64,000 nucleotides of DNA from Rhodovulum strictum (lineage in GTDB: Bacteria > Pseudomonadota > Alphaproteobacteria > Rhodobacterales > Rhodobacteraceae): positions 1-64,000 of the forward strand of contig NZ_WJPO01000008.1 in NCBI RefSeq assembly GCF_009649175.1, read 5' to 3'. Below are positions 37,948 through 47,598 of the stretch, piece after piece. The notes below the pieces were generated by a model. That model was not told the DNA's origin, made no database searches, and was given only the letters and a program-made list of their open reading frames with translations. Numbering within the stretch: position 1 is the first letter of the stretch; the number at the start of each line of letters is the position of its first letter. Made by a program: the position numbers and the translations under genes.

Positions 37948-38568
37948 TCAGTTCTGCGCGTAGAATTCGATGACGAGGTTCGGTTCCATCATGACCGGGT
38001 AGGGCACATCCGACAGGCCGGGCGTGCGCACGAATTTCGCGGTCATCCTGGAATGGTCCACCTCGATGTAATCGGGCACGTCACGCTCGGCCAGTTGCAC
38101 GGCTTCGAGCAGGGCGGCCATCTGCTTGGAGCGGTCGCGCACCTCGACCACGTCGCCTTCCTTGACGCGGTAGGACGGGATGTTGACCCGTTGCCCGTTC
38201 ACAAGGACATGGCCGTGGTTCACGAATTGCCGGGCGGCAAAGATCGTGGGCACGAACTTGGCGCGGTAGACGACCGCATCCAGACGGCGTTCCAGCAGGC
38301 CGATCAGCAGCTCGCCGGTGTCGCCGCGCTGACGCTCGGCCTCGGCATAGATGCGGCGGAACTGTTTCTCGGTCAGGTCGCCGTAATAGCCCTTGAGCTT
38401 CTGCTTGGCGCGAAGCTGCATGCCGAAATCGGACAGCTTGCCCTTGCGGCGCTGGCCGTGCTGGCCGGGGCCGTATTCGCGGCGGTTGACGGGGGATTTC
38501 GGACGGCCCCAGATGTTTTCGCCCATCCGGCGGTCGATCTTGTACTTGGCAGCGGTGCGTTTGGTCAC
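37948..38568 (-). CDS. rpsD: 30S ribosomal protein S4
   Basis: Encodes 206 residues, a primary 16S rRNA-binding protein that nucleates the small subunit body. The S4 RNA-binding domain begins [12 protein letters not shown] around residue 93 and contains [14 protein letters not shown]. The start is GTG 38568 with AAGGAG 8 bases upstream. It is a single-gene transcription unit with its own strong promoter, structured leader and terminator. Confidence 0.97.
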
Positions 38569-38711
38569 GGCTGATCTCCTTCAATCGGGCGCCGCGCGGG
38601 GGCGGCAATGAAGGGCGTTGTCCTTTGCCCCGGGTCTGGTCCGGGGCCGACAGGCATCCCCTTGCGGGGGCCACCAACACCAATGAAAGACCCGGCCACG
38701 GGGGCCGGGAT
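38569..38711 (-). promoter_or_regulatory. structured 5' leader of rpsD
   Basis: The deduced rpsD leader is about 140 bases and contains three hairpins: 38691-38697/38703-38709 (7 bp, followed on the minus strand by TCTTTCATT), a CCCC/GGGG stem near 38657-38670, and 38627-38633/38641-38647 (7 bp). S4 represses its own synthesis in several bacteria by binding mRNA leaders, so this may be an autoregulatory region. That role is inference. No gene is present in the 337-bp gap 38569-38905 beyond this leader, its promoter, and the start region of the divergent gene. Confidence 0.45.
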
Positions 38712-38717
38712 GGCGCG

Positions 38718-38745
38718 CTTATACAGATGCCGCCCGCGCTGTCAA
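38718..38745 (-). promoter_or_regulatory. sigma-70 promoter of rpsD
   Basis: On the minus strand TTGACA (38745-38740) and TATAAG (38723-38718) are separated by 16 bp. This is the best sigma-70-type match noticed in the window. Transcription would begin near 38711. Confidence 0.75.
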
Positions 38746-38905
38746 TGCCTGCCGCCGGGGTTGCACGCCCCCCCGCCCCGGGCGCGCTGCCTGTTCGGCA
38801 GGCGGCGCAGGCCATTGCGGCGGGCCGATCCGCAGGAAACCGGCCGAAGCGGTTTACAGCCCTGCGAAAACCGTCTTTGCTGCGGGCAAAACCGCGCGAG
38901 ACATC

Positions 38906-41900
38906 ATGGCGATCACCGCTTCCATCCGTCACCTGACCCATTACCGCTATGACCGCCCGGTCAGCCTTGGCCCGCAGGTGATCCGCCTGCGGCCGGCGCC
39001 GCACAGCCGGACGCGGGTGATCTCGCACAGCCTGAAGGTTCTGCCCGAGGGCCATTTCGTGAACCACCAGCAGGATCCCTATGGCAACTGGCTGGCGCGC
39101 TTCGTCTTTCCCGAGCCGGTGCGCGAGTTCCGGATCGAGGTCGATCTGGTCGCCGACATGACGGTTTACAACCCGTTCGACTTCTTCGTGGACGAAACGG
39201 CCGAGGAATGGCCCTTCGACTACCCTGCCGATCTGGTGGAGGATCTGTCGATCTATCGCGCGCCCGAGCCTGCGGGGCCGCTGCTGACCGCCTTTCTTGC
39301 CACGATCCCGCGCGAGGTGACGCGCACCGTCGATTTCGTGGTCGCGCTGAATGCAAGGCTGGAACGCGAGATCGATTATGTGATCCGGATGGAACCCGGC
39401 GTGCAGACGCCCGAGGATACGCTGGGGCGGAAATCGGGCTCGTGCCGGGACAGTTCCTGGCTGATGGTGCAGGTGCTGCGGCATCTGGGCTTTGCCGCGC
39501 GCTTCGTGTCGGGCTACCTGATCCAGTTGAAGCCCGATCTGGTGGCGCTCGACGGGCCGCCCGGCACCGATCACGACTTCACCGACCTGCATGCCTGGTG
39601 CGAGGTCTATCTGCCCGGCGCGGGCTGGATCGGGCTGGACCCGACCAGCGGGCTGCTGACCGGCGAAAGCCATATCCCGCTGGCTGCAACGCCGCATTAC
39701 CGCAATGCCGCCCCGATCACCGGCATGGCCAGCTATGCCGAGGTCGATTTCAACTTTCACATGGAGGTGCATCGCACCGCCGAGCATCCGCGCATCACCA
39801 AACCCTTTTCCGACGAGGCATGGCAGGCGCTGGACGCGCTGGGCCATCGGGTCGACGCGGCGATTGCGGCAGCCGACATGCGGCTGACGATGGGGGGCGA
39901 GCCCACTTTCGTCTCGATCGACGATTTCGAGTCGGATGAGTGGAACATCGCCGCCGTGGGGCCGATGAAGCGCGGGCTGGCCGACCGGCTGATCCGGCGG
40001 CTGCGCGAGCGCTTCGCGCCGGGCGGATTCCTGCATTACGGGCAGGGCAAGTGGTATCCGGGCGAGACGCTGCCGCGCTGGACCTTTTCGCTCTACTGGC
40101 GCCGCGACGGCAAGCCGATCTGGAAGAACCCGGACCTGATCGCCGAGGAAGCGGCGCAGACCGGCGCGGGGCCGGATGAGGCCGCGGCGCTGCTACATGG
40201 CATGGCCGAGCGGCTGGGGGTAGACCCCGATTTGGTGGTGCCCGCCTATGAGGATCCGGCGGAATGGATCGTCAAGGAAGGCAACCTGCCCGAGAACGTG
40301 ACGCCCGAGAATTCCAAGTTGAAGGATGCAGAGGAACGCGCCCGCATCGCCCGCGTCTTTGCCCGTGGACTGACCGAACCTGCGGGCCATATCCTGCCGA
40401 TCCAGCGCTGGCAGTCAAAGGCGAGCGGTCCGCGCTGGCGTTCCGAACGCTGGAAGATGCGCCGGGGCAAGCTGTTTCTGGTGCCCGGTGACAGCCCGGT
40501 GGGGTATCGTCTGCCGCTGGGCAGCCTGCCCCATATCCCGCCCGCGCAATTCCCCTATACCTATGTCACCGACCCGACCATCGAGCGCGGCCCCCTGCCC
40601 GAGTTCGACGCCGCCGACCGCGCCGCGCGGGCCGCGCTGCCGGAAACCACGCCGGGCCATGCCCAGCCCGTCGCCCGGTTTACCGAGGGCACCGCCGGGC
40701 AGGATGTGCGCGAGCAGGAGCTTGGCACCGATGCAGTGCGCACCGCGCTGTCGGTCGAACCGCGCGACGGGCGGCTTTGCGTCTTCATGCCGCCGGTCGA
40801 GGATGCCGAGGATTATCTGGAACTTGTCGCCGTAGCCGAGGCGACCGCCGCCGAAATGGGCCTGCCCGTGCATATCGAGGGCTATGCGCCGCCGCATGAT
40901 CCGCGGCTGAACGTGATCCGCGTTGCCCCCGATCCCGGCGTGATCGAGGTCAATGTCCATCCCGCCACCAGTTGGGACGAGTGCAAGGCGATCACCCTTG
41001 GCGTCTATGAGGAGGCGCGGCTGGCCCGTCTTGGCGCCGACAAGTTCATGATCGACGGCAAGCATTGCGGCACGGGGGGCGGCAATCATGTGGTGGTCGG
41101 CGGCGCCACGCCGAACGATTCCCCCTTCCTGCGGCGGCCGGATCTGCTGCGCTCGCTGATCCTGTACTGGCAGCGGCACCCCAGCCTGTCCTATCTGTTC
41201 TCGGGGCTGTTCATCGGCCCGACCAGCCAGGCGCCGCGGATCGACGAGGCGCGGCATGACAGCCTTTACGAGCTGGAAATCGCGCTGAGCCAGTTTCCCG
41301 ATCCCGGCGAAGGCGCGGCGCCGCCGCCCTGGCTGGTCGACCGGCTGTTGCGCAACATCCTGATCGACGTCACCGGCAACACCCATCGCGCCGAGCTGTG
41401 CATCGACAAGCTTTATTCGCCCGACGGGCCGACTGGGCGGCTGGGGCTGGTCGAGTTCCGCGGCTTCGAGATGCCGCCCGATGCGCGGATGAGCCTTGCC
41501 CAGCAGGTGCTGATCCGGGCGATTCTTGCGCGGCTGTGGCAGAACCCCGTCAAGGGCAAGCCGGTGCGCTGGGGCACCGAACTGCATGACCGTTTCATGC
41601 TGCCGCATTTCGTCTGGGCCGATTTCCTGGGCGTGCTGCGCGACCTGTCGGAGCATGGCTTTGCCTTCCGGTCGGAATGGTACGAGGCGCAAGCCGAGTT
41701 CCGTTTCCCGTTCTGCGGCGAGGTGGAATACGAGGGCGTGCATCTGGAGCTGCGTCAGGCGCTGGAGCCCTGGCATGTGCTGGGCGAGCGCGGCGCCATC
41801 GGCGGCACCGTGCGCTATACCGACAGTTCGGTGGAACGGATGCAGGTGAAGCTGACCGCCTCGAACCCGGGGCGCTACATCGTCGCCTGCAACCGCCGCG

Positions 41901-42253
41901 CGGTGCCGCTGCATGCGACCGAAACCAGCGGCACTGCCATCGGCGGCGTGCGGTTCAAGGCGTGGCAACCGGCCGAGGCGCTGCACCCCGTCCTGCCGGT
42001 GAATGCGCCCCTGACCTTCGACATCTTCGATACCTGGTCGGGCCGCGCGCTGGGCGGCTGCACCTATCATGTCGCCCATCCCGGCGGGCGCAGCTACGAC
42101 ACCTTCCCGGTCAATGCCAACGAGGCCGAGGCGCGGCGTCTGGCGCGGTTCGAGAAGATGGGCCACACGCCCGACAGCTACTGGCCCGCCCCCGACACCC
42201 CGCATCCCGAGTTTCCGATGACGCTCGACCTGCGCCGGGCGGCCGGGATCTGA
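38906..42253 (+). CDS. transglutaminase-like / DUF2126 putative amidoligase fusion
   Basis: Encodes 1115 residues. Residues 1-260 form a bacterial transglutaminase-like module with N-terminal beta domain and catalytic triad Cys180 (SGSCRDSS), His229 (DLHAW) and Asp245 (GLDPTSG). From about residue 330 the protein is DUF2126, annotated as a putative amidoligase; [38 protein letters not shown] and [15 protein letters not shown] are prominent. No signal peptide is seen. It starts a three-gene operon with an ATP-grasp/alpha-E fusion and a second transglutaminase. The set is predicted from comparative genomics to make or modify peptides through amide bonds. The product is unknown. Confidence 0.88.
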
Positions 42254-42254
42254 G

Positions 42255-44657
42255 ATGGGCTCGACCGACCATAAGGCCGAGGATCCCGCGGCCGCGCTGT
42301 TGCAGGGCTATCGCCCGCCGCCGGGCGTTGCCGACGAGATGCTGCGGCCCGATGGCGGGATCAGGCCGGTCTGGCAGCCGCTGATCGAGTTGCTGGCCGG
42401 ACAGACCCCGGAAGAACTGGTCCAGCGCTTTTCCCGGGGCGACCAGCACCTGCACGATACGGGCGTCTATTACCGCCAGCACAGTTCGGGCGGCTCGACC
42501 CTGCGCGACTGGCCGCTGAGCCATATCCCCGTGATGATCGCCGACGAGGAATGGCAGCGGCTTTCCGAGGGGCTGATCCAGCGGGCGGACCTGCTGGAAC
42601 GGGTCATGGCCGATCTTTACGGGCCGGGCGATCTGGTGGCGGACGGGCTGTTGCCCGCGGATCTGGTGGCGCGCAATCCCGAATGGCTGCGCCCCGTCGT
42701 GGGCATCCGGCCGCGCTCGGGCCATTTCCTGCATTTCCTGGCCTTCGAGGTGGGCCGCTCACCGGACGGGTCGTGGCTGGTGCTGGGCGACCGGACACAG
42801 GCGCCGTCGGGCTCGGGCTTTGCGCTGGAAAACCGGATGGCGACGTCGCGGGTCTTTCCGGACCTGTTCCCGAATGCCAATGTCCGGCGGCTGGCGGGCT
42901 TTTTCCGCGCCTTTCGCGACACGATGAACGAACATCGCGGCGAAAGCGCGACCCGGGTCGCGATCCTGAGCCCGGGCCAGCATACCGACACCTATTTCGA
43001 GCATGCCTATATCGCCCGCTATCTGGGGTTCCTGCTGCTGGAATGCGAGGATCTGAAGGTCGAGCATGGCAGGCTTGCGGTGCGCACGATCGACGGGCCG
43101 CAACCTGTCAGCGTGCTGTGGCGGCGGCTTGACTCGCGCTTTGCCGATCCGCTGGAGCTTGACGAAAGCTCGGCGCTGGGCACGCCGGGCATGGTCGCGG
43201 CGCTGCGGGCGCAGGAACTGACCATGCTCAACTGCCTGGGCTCGGGCGTGCTGGAGGCGCGCGCGATGATGGCGTTCCTGCCGCGGATCTGCGAGCGGCT
43301 GACCGGCGCGGCGCTGAAGATCCCCAATATCGCGACCTGGTGGTGCGGCCAGCCCGCCGAACGCGCCTATGTCACCGACAACCTGCACCGCATGATGATC
43401 GGGCGGGCGCTGTCGACCGACCTGCCCTTCGAGGTCGATGCCCTGACCGCGCTGGGCGGCGATTTCCGGGGCAGCGCGCAGAAACCCATCAGCGCCTGGA
43501 TCGCGGCCGATGGCGCCCAGCTTGTCGGGCAGGAGGCGGTCACGCTGTCCACCACCCCCGCGATGATCGAGGGCGAACTGGTGCCCCGGCCCATGCTGAT
43601 CCGGGTCTTCCTGGCGCGCACGCCGCGCGGCTGGGCGGTGATGCCCGGCGGCTATGCCCGCATCGGGCGCACCGAGGATCCCACCGCGCTGGCGATGAAG
43701 AATGGCGGCTCGGTCGCCGATGTCTGGGTGGTCAGCGATGCCCCGGTCACGCCCGAAAGCCTTGCCCTGCAGCATAACGGGCCCTTCGTGCGCCGCCTGC
43801 CCGGCGTCCTGCCCAGCCGCGCGGCGGACAATCTTTACTGGCTGGGTCGCTATGTCGAACGGGCCGAGGCGCGGGTGCGCGAGCTGCGCGCCTATCACCT
43901 GCGGCTTGAGGAGGTCGGCCATCGCGAGATGCCGCTGATCGACTATCTCGAACGCTATCTCGAAGGCTACGACCTTGACCCGGACGAGCCCCTGCCCGCG
44001 GGTGTACTGCATCTGTTCGACGCGGCGCAGGGCTGCGCGGGCAAGGTGCGCGACCGGTTCTCGACGGATGGCTGGCACGCGCTGACCGATCTGGCCTTTA
44101 CCGCGCATGGCATGTTCAACCGGGTGCGGCCTGGCGATCAGGCGGCGCGGCGGATGACGGAACTGTTGCGCAAGCTGGCGGGCTTTGCCGGGCTGGTGCA
44201 TGACAACATGTTCCGCTTTGCCGGCTGGCGCTTCTTGACCATGGGGCGCGCGCTGGAACGGGCCGACCAGATGCTGTCGGCGCTGGCGACCTTTACCGCC
44301 CCGGACGCGCCGCCGGGCAGTCTGGATGTCGCGGTCGAGGTGGGCGACAGCGTGATGACCCATCGCCGCCGCTATCCGATGGCCACCGGCTGCAACACCG
44401 TCGTCGACCTGCTGGCGCTGGACGTCGACAACCCGCGTTCGGTGCTGTTCCAGCTCGACGTGCTGCGCGAGCAGGAGGCGATGCTGACCCGTGCGCGCGA
44501 GGGCGGGACGATGACCGATCTGGCCCGGCGCATCCTGCTGGTTCACACCGATCTGTCGGTGGCCGCGCCCGACGACATGACCCCCGAGCGGCTTCTGGAG
44601 ACCCGCAAGGCGATCCGCGACATCTCTGACGCGCTGACCGCGCGCTATCTGAGCTAG
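42255..44657 (+). CDS. circularly permuted ATP-grasp / alpha-E domain fusion
   Basis: Encodes 800 residues. Residues about 60-480 are a circularly permuted type 2 ATP-grasp domain (DUF404/407 class), including SGSGFALENRMATSRVFP and NLHRMMIGRAL. From about residue 510 it is an alpha-E domain (DUF403), all helical, starting SRAADNLYWLGRYVERAE. In many bacteria these domains are separate genes; here they are fused. The ATP-grasp would activate a carboxylate for amide-bond formation. The start follows the previous stop by one base, and the next gene starts 4 bp after the stop. Confidence 0.88.
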   Translation: MGSTDHKAEDPAAALLQGYRPPPGVADEMLRPDGGIRPVWQPLIELLAGQTPEELVQRFSRGDQHLHDTGVYYRQHSSGGSTLRDWPLSHIPVMIADEEWQRLSEGLIQRADLLERVMADLYGPGDLVADGLLPADLVARNPEWLRPVVGIRPRSGHFLHFLAFEVGRSPDGSWLVLGDRTQAPSGSGFALENRMATSRVFPDLFPNANVRRLAGFFRAFRDTMNEHRGESATRVAILSPGQHTDTYFEHAYIARYLGFLLLECEDLKVEHGRLAVRTIDGPQPVSVLWRRLDSRFADPLELDESSALGTPGMVAALRAQELTMLNCLGSGVLEARAMMAFLPRICERLTGAALKIPNIATWWCGQPAERAYVTDNLHRMMIGRALSTDLPFEVDALTALGGDFRGSAQKPISAWIAADGAQLVGQEAVTLSTTPAMIEGELVPRPMLIRVFLARTPRGWAVMPGGYARIGRTEDPTALAMKNGGSVADVWVVSDAPVTPESLALQHNGPFVRRLPGVLPSRAADNLYWLGRYVERAEARVRELRAYHLRLEEVGHREMPLIDYLERYLEGYDLDPDEPLPAGVLHLFDAAQGCAGKVRDRFSTDGWHALTDLAFTAHGMFNRVRPGDQAARRMTELLRKLAGFAGLVHDNMFRFAGWRFLTMGRALERADQMLSALATFTAPDAPPGSLDVAVEVGDSVMTHRRRYPMATGCNTVVDLLALDVDNPRSVLFQLDVLREQEAMLTRAREGGTMTDLARRILLVHTDLSVAAPDDMTPERLLETRKAIRDISDALTARYLS

Positions 44658-44661
44658 ACCC

Positions 44662-45555
44662 ATGGCGATCGACTACGACATCCGGCTCGAGATCACCTAT
44701 GCCTACGCCGCGCCCGCGGGGTCGAGCCGCACGATCCTGCGCATGCTGCCCCTGACCGGGGCAGACCAGCATCTGGTCTCGGGCCGCGTCTCGACCGATC
44801 CCGAACCCGATTTCCGCCGCGACGGGGCCGATTTCTTCGGCAATGCCACGACCGAGATCGCCCATGACCGGCCGCTGACCGAGATCGCCTTTCGCTTTGC
44901 CGGCCGGGTGCGACGGCTGGGCGGCGGCCCCGAACTGGACCTGTCGACCGATCTGGGCCGGCTGGGCGAGGAAATCGCCGCGATCCGGGGCATCGGCCCC
45001 ACGGTGCCGCATCATTTCCTGGGCAATTCCGAACGCATCCACCACGAGCCCCGGATCGCGGCCTTCGCCGATGCGCTGGTCAAGCCGGGCATGTCGGCGC
45101 TGGCCGCAACCCGCGCCATTTCGCATGCGCTGCACCAGCGATTCGAGTTCGACCCCGAAGCCACAGAGGTCACGACGCCGCCCATCGTGGCCTTCGAGGC
45201 CCGGCGCGGCGTCTGTCAGGACATCAGCCATGTGACGATCGCGGCGCTGCGCGCGGTCGGCATCCCGGCGGGCTATGTCAGCGGCTTTCTGCGGACCAGG
45301 CCGCCGCCGGGCCAGCCCCGGCTGGAAGGCGCGGATGCGATGCATGCCTGGGTGCGCGCCTGGTGCGGCGCCGAAACCGGCTGGATCGAGATCGACCCGA
45401 CCAATGACCTGCTGGTGGGAACCGACCACGTTTCGGTAGCCATCGGGCGCGATTACGCCGATGTCGCCCCCGTGCGCGGCTCGCTCAGGACAGAGGGCAC
45501 GCACACGACCGCGCACAAGGTCGACGTCATCCCCTGCGAGGGCCGCAGCGGATAA
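44662..45555 (+). CDS. transglutaminase-like protein
   Basis: Encodes 297 residues: an N-terminal beta domain and a transglutaminase-like core with Cys185 (RRGVCQDISH), His228 (DAMHAWV) and Asp245 (IDPTNDL), the full catalytic triad. Bacterial members are usually peptidases or peptide-modifying enzymes rather than cross-linkers. No signal peptide is visible. It is the third gene of the amidoligase operon. The proteasome-like Anbu gene that accompanies such clusters in other bacteria is not in the window. Confidence 0.88.
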   Translation: MAIDYDIRLEITYAYAAPAGSSRTILRMLPLTGADQHLVSGRVSTDPEPDFRRDGADFFGNATTEIAHDRPLTEIAFRFAGRVRRLGGGPELDLSTDLGRLGEEIAAIRGIGPTVPHHFLGNSERIHHEPRIAAFADALVKPGMSALAATRAISHALHQRFEFDPEATEVTTPPIVAFEARRGVCQDISHVTIAALRAVGIPAGYVSGFLRTRPPPGQPRLEGADAMHAWVRAWCGAETGWIEIDPTNDLLVGTDHVSVAIGRDYADVAPVRGSLRTEGTHTTAHKVDVIPCEGRSG

Positions 45556-45720
45556 GCCGCCGCCGCAGGGCGACGCGCCCCCATGCCCCCGGTCGCGCAG
45601 ATGCCGCGTCAATGCCGCCGCCCTGCCGCGCGCGCGGCGAATTCCGGCCGGGGTTTCACGGCATGTTAGCTTTTCCGGGTCATCACAGAATCTGCGGCTT
45701 CATCAAGGAAAAGAACGAAC

Positions 45721-47598
45721 GTGAAGGGTCTGTCACTGAAAGCGCTGCTCGCGCTGGGCACGGGGTTGCTGTTTCTGGCGCTTTGCGTCGCCCAGGCGGC
45801 TGTCCTGCACCATCAATCCGCCAAGGCGATGCAGGATGCAGCGCTCAGCCGACAGGCGGTGTCGCTGCGAATCGTGATCGACCGGTTCCGATCCGCCTTC
45901 GAGGGGATCGAGGTTGCAGCCGCGGCCGATGGCACGGTGCAGCGGGTCACGTGGGACCGGCTGCCCGAGATCGGCGATCATGACGTCATCGACCGGGCCG
46001 GCGCGATCTCGGGCGAGACCGCGACGCTTTTTGCGTGGGAGGCCGCCCGGGGCGAATTCGTGCGGATCACGACCAATATCCGCAAGGACGATGGCACGCG
46101 CGCCGTCGGCACGGTGCTGGGGCGCGACAATCCGGTTCATGCCGCGATGCTGCGCGGCGAACGCTATACGGGCCAGGCGCAGATCCTCGGCAAGCCCTAC
46201 CTGACCCTTTACCAGCCCATCCTTGCACCGACGGGCGAGGTTCTGGGGATCTTCTATGTCGGCATCGACCGCAGCCGGATCGACAGCGCCATCGCCGCCC
46301 AGCGATGGGCCAGCCTGCTCGTGTCGGGGCTGCTGATTGTGCTTGGCGTGGCGCTGCTTCTGGCCATGCTGAACGTCCTTTTCCGCCCCCTTCCCGCCCT
46401 CGGCCGCGCCTTCGAACGGATGGCCGGCGACGATCTGGACACCGAAGTTCCCCATACCGGCCGCCGGGACGAGATCGGCGCGATTGCCCGCAGCGCCGAT
46501 GCCTTCCGCGCAAAGCTGGCCTCTGCCCGGGTTCTTGACGCGCAAGCCCGGCAACGCCAGCAGGAGACCGTCGAGATCGTCGAGATCCTGCGCACCGGGC
46601 TTGAACGGCTGGCCGCGGGCGATCTGACCCATGCGCTGGAAACGCCGTTTCCTGACGAATACGAAGGGCTGCGGGCCGATTTCAACAGCACCATCGAGAC
46701 CCTGAACGAGCTGATCGCGTCGCTGGTCGAGAACGCGACCGAGATTCGCACCCGCGCGGGCGAGATCGGCTCTGCCTCCGGCGAACTGTCGCAGCGCACC
46801 GAGAACCAGGCCGCGACGCTGGAGGAAACCGCCGCCGCGCTGGACGAGCTGACCTCGAGCGTGCGGGCCGCCGCCGATGGCGCGGCCGAGGTCGAGCGGG
46901 TCGTGTCAGCCGCGCGCGGCGATGCCGAAGCCTCGGGCCGGGTGGTGAGCGATGCGATCGGCGCGATGTCCGAGATCAAGCGGTCATCCGACGAGATCGG
47001 CCAGATCATCGGCGTGATCGACGACATCGCGTTCCAGACCAACCTGCTGGCGCTGAACGCGGGCGTCGAGGCCGCGCGGGCGGGCGAGGCCGGGCGCGGC
47101 TTTGCGGTCGTCGCATCGGAAGTGCGGGCACTGGCGCAGCGCAGTTCCGACGCCGCCAAGGAAATCAAGACCCTGATCGGCACCAGTTCGGATCAGGTCG
47201 AATCCGGCGTGGCGCTGGTCAACCGCGCGGGCGAGGCGCTGAGCGACATCGTGGGCCGCGTGGCGAACATCGCCGACCTGGTCTCGGGCATCGCCACAGG
47301 CGCGCAGGAACAATCGGTGGGCCTGGGCGAGATCAATGTGGGCGTGACGCAGCTTGACCAGGTGACGCAGCAGAACGCCGCCATGGTCGAGGAAGCCACC
47401 GCCGCCAGCGCCACCCTGCGCCACGAGGCCGAGACGCTGGAACAGATGGTGTCGCGCTTCCGCGTCCGGCGCAGCACCGGAACCGCCATGCGCGCGGTGC
47501 CCGACAGGTCCGGCCCGCCGGGAGCCGCCCGGGTTTCGGGCACGCGCGACGAACCGGCCTTTGCCCGGCATGGCGGGCGGGCGGTTCGCTACCTCTAG
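45721..47598 (+). CDS. transmembrane methyl-accepting chemotaxis protein with Cache sensor
   Basis: Encodes 625 residues. Two membrane segments (about 7-29 and 196-221) enclose a periplasmic single-Cache-like domain. Then come a HAMP domain (about 220-275), a second HAMP-like linker (about 285-335) and the MCP signalling domain. The hairpin tip contains [20 protein letters not shown] in conserved form. The start is GTG 45721 with AAGGAAA upstream. A basic, flexible tail of about 45 residues ends the protein. It should sense a small extracellular ligand; ligand unknown. No other chemotaxis genes are nearby. Confidence 0.92.

Follow-up and report, generated by a model that had tools for sequence, protein, structure and literature searches.

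A three-gene operon of transglutaminase, DUF2126, ATP-grasp and alpha-E domains

We analyzed a 64,000-nucleotide stretch of the Rhodovulum strictum genome (contig NZ_WJPO01000008.1, positions 1 to 64,000, hereafter the window), in which three genes at positions 38906–45555 form an operon on the forward strand. Gene 1 (38906..42253, + strand) encodes a protein of 1115 amino acids (aa), in which a transglutaminase-like thiol domain (residues 1 to about 270) is fused to DUF2126, a putative amidoligase domain (residues 278–1110). Gene 2 (42255..44657, + strand) encodes a protein of 800 aa, in which a circularly permuted (CP) ATP-grasp domain that has lost its nucleotide and metal residues is fused to an alpha-E domain. 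Gene 3 (44662..45555, + strand) encodes a stand-alone transglutaminase-like protein of 297 aa. According to the list of open reading frames (ORFs), the gaps between the genes are 1 base (genes 1 and 2) and 4 bases (genes 2 and 3). Pfam matches were Bact_transglu_N (99 bits), Transglut_core (62 bits) and DUF2126 (1337 bits) for gene 1, CP_ATPgrasp_2 (421 bits), CP_ATPgrasp_1 (258 bits) and Alpha-E (186 bits) for gene 2, and Transglut_core (70 bits) and Bact_transglu_N (61 bits) for gene 3, while NCBIfam models gave no match to any of the three genes at E 0.1. A first-pass annotation of this DNA had described three tightly packed genes with these domains and a kinship to published systems for amide-bond formation or peptide modification, and both descriptions stand.

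Both thiol domains have an intact catalytic triad. The Cys-His-Asp triad of gene 1 (C180/H229/D245) was kept in 125/125 aligned relatives, and that of gene 3 (C185/H228/D245), already pointed out in the first-pass annotation, retained Cys and His in 125/125 and Asp in 123/125. In the structure model of gene 1 (pLDDT 74.7), the thiol domain matched 3isr in a Foldseek search (E 1e-13). Gene 1 thus has the N-terminal transglutaminase domain with Cys-His-Asp followed by DUF2126 that marks its family. Rv2566 itself is, we presume, a DUF2126 protein. The Rv2566-type family was described as a transglutaminase joined to a carboxylate-amine ligase (Iyer, Burroughs and Aravind 2008, PMC2588565; Pfam DUF2126, PF09899), and its N-terminal transglutaminase-like domain and C-terminal ligase-superfamily domain match the layout of gene 1. 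No essential difference was seen, and gene 1 looks like an ordinary member. The window operon is a regular member of the published family, an example of a widespread gene set presumed to make amide bonds.

A complete classic operon in the same genome

The classic Anbu operon (PMC5666114, PMC6376114) has CP ATP-grasp, alpha-E and transglutaminase families that the window operon also contains. In contrast to the classic operon, the window operon lacks Anbu, has its ATP-grasp fused to alpha-E, has DUF2126 added and has lost the ATP/Mg positions. Hereafter, "classic" denotes ATP-grasp and alpha-E proteins of the Anbu-operon type and "fused" an ATP-grasp joined to alpha-E.

The first-pass annotation had rightly noted that no Anbu gene adjoins the window operon, which it took for a compact Anbu-less version, and had proposed to look for Anbu elsewhere in the genome. 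A proteasome-fold search of the genome found matches in two places, contigs C22 and C44. The better-scoring match, on C22, was taken to be HslV. The C44 protein (247 aa) begins MTYCVG, with Thr directly past Met as expected of Anbu, and is Anbu. It belongs to a classic operon (L005:3459-7397) of ATP-grasp (473 aa), alpha-E (313 aa), transglutaminase (268 aa) and Anbu (247 aa) genes, in which adjacent genes either overlap by 4 bases or are separated by 5 to 23 bases. Two alpha-E matches were found in the genome, one on C44 and the other in the window. C44 carries a complete classic operon, so Anbu is not missing and the window operon represents a second set, not a compact version.

The fused ATP-grasp keeps its fold and appears to lack the ATP site

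The structure model of gene 2 had a pLDDT of 88.7 and a pTM of 0.83. The best Foldseek match to this model was 3n6x (E 6e-29), followed by eukaryotic glutathione synthetases and E. coli GspS (2io7, 2io8); Pfam, the model and Foldseek all support a circularly permuted ATP-grasp fold. The protein 3n6x, a CP ATP-grasp from Methylobacillus flagellatus deposited as a putative glutathionylspermidine synthase, matches the fold of gene 2 over residues 27–495, and no other PDB entry rose above noise when the alignment of classic proteins was used as a profile. It carries the classic VLEDN, ADDK and VVKEVQGSGGYG motifs, whereas gene 2 lacks them.

To compare the two types, the ATP-grasp domains of 125 fused and 27 classic proteins were aligned, with residues numbered after the classic enzyme encoded on C44. 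Proteins were called fused when an alpha-E match lay in the same ORF, and classic when they were unfused and scored >350 bits to the C44 protein, a criterion biased toward C44-like proteins; four partial or ambiguous candidate ORFs were excluded and ORFs below 100 bits disregarded. All 27 classic proteins had D146, E159, N161, K319, K366 and G372-G373. At the four nucleotide and metal positions (E159, N161, K319 and K366), 109 of the 125 fused proteins kept none of these residues and 16 kept one. Other positions were conserved: D101, G167, R175, D281, G292, N309 and G312 were each retained in 125/125 fused proteins and R428 in 124/125. Replacements were also conserved, with Glu at the D317 position in 122/125 and Arg at the N161 position in 114/125.

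In gene 2 of the window, E165, G178, R180, R336 and G383 stand at the D146, E159, N161, K319 and K366 positions, respectively. The codons of G178-D179-R180 (42786..42794, + strand) lie at classic E159-D160-N161, of which Glu and Asn are the presumed Mg ligands, and those of E334-A335-R336 (43254..43262, + strand) at classic D317-D318-K319. The codons of residues 383–397 (43401..43445, + strand) cover the region of classic K366 and the Ser-Gly-Gly-Tyr-Gly loop; the Lys and the Gly-rich loop are absent, and the confidence of the model drops just past this region (residues 407–409, pLDDT <50). Gene 2 therefore has none of the ligase features considered, namely the metal-binding Glu and Asn, the phosphate-binding lysines and the Gly-rich loop.

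These roles were assigned after D318, E330, N332, K498 and K533 of E. coli GspS, which we take to bind metal or phosphate, and GspS residues were matched to the classic CP ATP-grasp by motif order and by eye; hhalign found no match between the classic CP ATP-grasp and E. coli GspS (probability 0.0 percent). The ATP-grasp loop of GspS is placed at residues 534–563, directly past K533, in PMC3581523, and the Gly-rich stretch lost in the fused proteins falls where this loop follows K533. In the fused relative L085 most of the segment itself is gone, with 16 residues compared to 76 in the window.

Judging from the alignment, the fused proteins conserve the fold and part of the pocket, and not its nucleotide and metal side. 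The first-pass annotation had counted two ligase-type modules in the operon and named missing ATP-grasp catalytic residues as the finding that would speak against its proposal; such residues are indeed missing from the fused ATP-grasp, leaving that count unsupported. The fused ATP-grasp is thus very probably a pseudo-ligase and not an ATP-using ligase, and its loss of the ATP site suggests that it is a helper of the complete second set in the same genome. A partial literature search found no description of an inactive fused ATP-grasp or of its pairing with a classic set, although Iyer et al. 2009 may already note the residue losses; a search for the word DUF2126 returned no paper.

The alpha-E domain of gene 2 (43809..44651, + strand) contains two conserved Glu-Arg motifs, E535-R536 and E668-R669, which are retained in at least 122/125 relatives and support its membership of the alpha-E family. 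The ATP-grasp part is maintained by selection, because the ratio of nonsynonymous to synonymous substitutions (dN/dS) in five close pairs of the fused gene was 0.06–0.12, both for the whole protein and for the ATP-grasp part alone. These pairs come from Mesorhizobium, Rhizobium and Bradyrhizobium loci, not from the nearest kin of the window, and two of them have one sequence (L221) in common. Four more distant pairs, including the window and L156, gave 0.44–0.72 for gene 2 and were not used, as NG86 is unreliable at such divergence.

In a quick maximum-likelihood tree of 92 rows, a single branch (SH-aLRT 100, length 1.11) parted 65 fused from 27 classic proteins, the 65 fused rows being those left of 125 after thinning among the named loci (see below). 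A single origin of the fused proteins is consistent with this tree and not proven by it, given the length of some fused rows and an arbitrary root.

Gene order in relatives and co-occurrence with the classic system

In the class sample, 23 of 144 genomes carried DUF2126, as did 75 of 249 in the phylum sample. Its distribution within the window's own family is patchy, since three genomes (G000, G353, G371) carried it and 13 listed genomes did not. DNA was examined for 23 class-sample loci (window included), 34 diverse phylum-sample loci (20 from other classes and 14 further picks, one of which, G365, is also from another class) and 80 named loci, the best 80 of at least 590 confirmed loci.

All three genes were present in 117 of these 137 DUF2126 loci (18/23 class loci, 15/20 other-class picks, 13/14 further phylum picks and 71/80 named loci). 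In 114 of the complete loci the order was DUF2126, fused gene, transglutaminase on one strand; two had the order fused gene, transglutaminase, DUF2126, and one had DUF2126 on the opposite strand. Random neighbourhoods in relatives, the other sign that the first-pass annotation had named against its proposal, are contradicted by the same order and strand in 114/137 loci. Nine named loci were incomplete: L160, L192, L198, L203 and L231 were ended by a contig end at or just past DUF2126 or the fused gene, and L161, L181, L201 and L228 had no partners in the examined DNA. In G106 (L080), a fused remnant and a transglutaminase were found on another contig, L081, at its end, and for L122 and L124 the examined stretch stopped at or near the fused gene. 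The remaining incomplete loci were L062, L074, L078, L079, L125, L129, L141 and L152.

In the class sample, DUF2126 and the fused protein occurred together in 19 genomes, each alone in 4, and neither in 117 (Fisher 2.9e-16). Co-occurrence searches scored alpha-E as a stand-in for the classic ATP-grasp, and every examined stretch with a classic alpha-E also had a classic ATP-grasp. Classic-type alpha-E (at least 248 bits) was present in 23/23 class genomes with DUF2126 and in 23/23 with the fused protein, against a background of 58/144 genomes with any alpha-E; fused and classic alpha-E were separated by hand from score and frame length, and G106, with its cut fused gene, was counted as fused. 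The phylum sample gave the same picture, with alpha-E matches of at least 245 bits in 74/75 DUF2126 genomes compared to 143/249 overall (Fisher 1.1e-21). The exception, G237, had a match of 237.8 bits that covered only part of the family model. Anbu was a less strict partner, found in 17/23 DUF2126 class genomes, with strong matches in 14 of those. Among other-class picks, 10/20 had classic ATP-grasp and alpha-E genes within the same 16 kb as DUF2126 and the fused gene (nine with a transglutaminase, one without). Both sets are also present in the Pseudooceanicola of L156, within a single locus of 21 kb. Together, these results indicated that, among the genomes sampled, DUF2126 is almost entirely confined to those with a classic-type alpha-E.

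Several loci depart from the common arrangement. L082, L083, L084 and L085, from 4/23 class genomes carrying the fused protein, have the fused protein and a transglutaminase in genomes without DUF2126, and L079, L062, L074 and L078 carry DUF2126 but lack the fused protein. DUF2126 lies beside classic ATP-grasp and alpha-E genes in L074, where they are convergent, and in L078, where they are divergent; Anbu is nearby in L062 and L078. In L141 (G346), gene 1 takes a split form, with separate adjacent genes encoding a 300-aa transglutaminase-like domain and a short DUF2126 of 713 aa. Outside the phylum, a plasmid-labelled record of Tsukamurella tyrosinosolvens (Actinomycetota; L236:5836-9218) has a fused gene and an adjoining transglutaminase gene near aspS, alaS and a recombination gene, with no DUF2126 in the stretch; its fused protein shows the same residue losses. 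Housekeeping genes such as aspS and alaS are odd for a plasmid-labelled record.

Surroundings of the operon

The upstream neighbour of the operon is rpsD (37948–38568, opposite strand), and a chemotaxis receptor gene starts downstream at 45721. Flanking proteins were compared among L005, 34 class-sample loci, 34 phylum-sample loci, 80 named loci, the plasmid loci L236 and L237, and the window. At E 1e-20, the rpsD product of the window matched in no scanned locus except the window itself; matches to the chemotaxis receptor were scattered, and two other flanking proteins had one match each. Both rpsD and the chemotaxis receptor therefore seem to lie outside the gene set. The 337-base gap between rpsD and gene 1 (38569–38905) held no promoter recognisable by simple scans, which alphaproteobacterial promoters may not fit, and a terminator scan of 38400–46000 gave matches at chance level. 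A recent transfer of the operon was considered and rejected: the G+C content of the three genes (0.67–0.70) gave no compositional sign of it against that of the window (0.68).

Possible function of the operon

We tentatively read the window operon as an accessory module of the amide-bond system built on alpha-E and CP ATP-grasp, a reading about which we are only slightly more doubtful than confident. DUF2126 would be its single ATP-driven ligase, the fused protein a pseudo-ligase that acts as a partner, and the two transglutaminases thiol amidase or transferase units. In this scheme, DUF2126 would activate a carboxylate with ATP and join it to an amine, by the chemistry of the glutamine synthetase superfamily. 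Gene 2 would bind the same substrate class, or the alpha-E partner, without using ATP; it may be a scaffold, a regulator or a subunit that presents substrate, serving gene 1, the classic ATP-grasp and alpha-E of C44, or both. The two transglutaminase-type enzymes may cut or transfer the amide, so that bonds would be both made and undone. RloABC of Pseudomonas aeruginosa (PMC12239564) offers a comparison of working mode only, combining an ATP-grasp protein with a protein whose enzyme fold is described as inactive. Its families differ, including a retropepsin-like protease and a membrane-bound inactive transglutaminase, whereas in the window the ATP-grasp, not the transglutaminase, looks inactive.

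The assignment of DUF2126 as a putative glutamine-synthetase-like ligase rests on PMC2588565 and the Pfam label, because profile and structure comparisons showed only weak or no match. The domain has many invariant acidic and basic residues across relatives, which lend it circumstantial support. Foldseek with the gene 1 model gave a weak match of DUF2126 to the gamma-glutamylmethylamide synthetase 9qur (rank 49, E 0.27), and the best GCS2 piece aligned E850-x-R852 with the GCS2 "LEMR" motif, which is suggestive only, the overall match being non-significant.

A number of observations weigh against the accessory module. Comparisons of DUF2126 by hhalign with 16 GCS2, 5 Amidoligase_2 and 30 GshA-type proteins gave probabilities of 0.2, 0.1 and 0.1 percent, and a PDB profile search found only transglutaminases above noise. 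The loss of the ATP site is not uniform, as E159 is retained in 2/125 fused proteins, N161 in 0/125, K319 in 3/125, K366 in 11/125 and D146 in 78/125, and the fused set is uneven, with 72/125 proteins from the 80 named loci that match the window best. Four class-sample genomes have the fused protein and transglutaminase without DUF2126, four have DUF2126 without the fused protein, and the Fisher tests ignore phylogeny. According to PMC6376114, a specific complex of the Anbu-operon proteins of Y. bercovieri with Anbu was not found. Scans of 38400–46000 found no sigma70-like site, and matches to a sigma54 pattern in the window and L005 were fewer than expected by chance.

Published expression data bear on the role of such a module. 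According to PMC5491218, the Burkholderia cenocepacia cluster I35_5080-83 comprises DUF404/407, DUF403, a transglutaminase and a "large protein containing transglutaminase-like domain", and depends on NtrC and sigma54. In L127 the classic genes precede gene 1 in this same order, and we infer that I35_5083 is a DUF2126 protein. Expression on nitrate exceeds that on ammonium for two P. putida genes, PP_2685 (proteasome beta; log2 4.44) and PP_2688 (CP ATP-grasp; log2 3.99) (PMC8050072), and Anbu is said to increase in nitrogen-limited P. putida (PMC5666114). A role of the module in nitrogen supply is plausible by analogy, because these homologous clusters of other species are under NtrC/sigma54 or nitrogen-source control. 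The ATP-grasp of Y. bercovieri was described as releasing phosphate from ATP, and its Anbu as having no peptidase activity (PMC6376114). The accessible literature on Anbu, alpha-E, ATP-grasp and transglutaminase predicts the making or modification of amide bonds and reports no known substrate.

Alternatively, the fused ATP-grasp could still be an enzyme with altered chemistry, either one that transfers acyl groups without ATP or one that uses a nucleotide through a rebuilt site (D179-R180, E334, R450). The conservation of the replacements speaks for such an enzyme (Arg at N161 in 114, Glu at D317 in 122, Arg at R428 in 124, and D281 and N309 in 125 fused proteins), but the alignment shows no substitute for the phosphate loop or lysines and the K366 position is highly variable among fused proteins, and we consider it unlikely.

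Less likely still is a catabolic or recycling unit, in which the two thiol amidases would act on amide-linked polymers or conjugates to free amino acids or ammonia under nitrogen shortage, with DUF2126 as a salvage ligase. Two intact thiol triads to one probable ligase would suit it, as would the NtrC/sigma54 dependence of the B. cenocepacia transglutaminase/DUF403/DUF404-407 cluster (PMC5491218) and the nitrogen-source-dependent expression of P. putida Anbu-operon genes (PMC8050072). However, these data come from other species, the named P. putida genes (proteasome beta and CP ATP-grasp) belong to the classic operon, and the sigma54 pattern revealed no nitrogen promoter in the window or L005.

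The first-pass view of DUF2126 and the fused ATP-grasp as two active ligases in a stand-alone, compact peptide-modification operon without need of Anbu is very improbable, since the fold, the strong Pfam matches and the retained R168, R450 and D298 are outweighed by the loss of the E159, N161, K319 and K366 positions and of the Gly-rich loop, and by the classic operon with Anbu in the same genome.

Within the accessory-module reading, a bolder and rather doubtful proposal is that the fused proteins are old, widespread pseudo-ligases that never work alone, and that their task is to recruit or gate the active classic pair of ATP-grasp and alpha-E (and Anbu where present) for DUF2126, with the conserved, re-specified pocket (D179-R180, E334, R450) as a substrate sensor. 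If so, the module would add to an amide-tagging system a second layer that depends on the first. If one presumed ligase is dead yet selected and tied to a set with a complete ATP site, assays would have to address DUF2126 and the classic ATP-grasp and treat the fused protein as a partner, and the two separable sets would also give a genetic route to the substrate.

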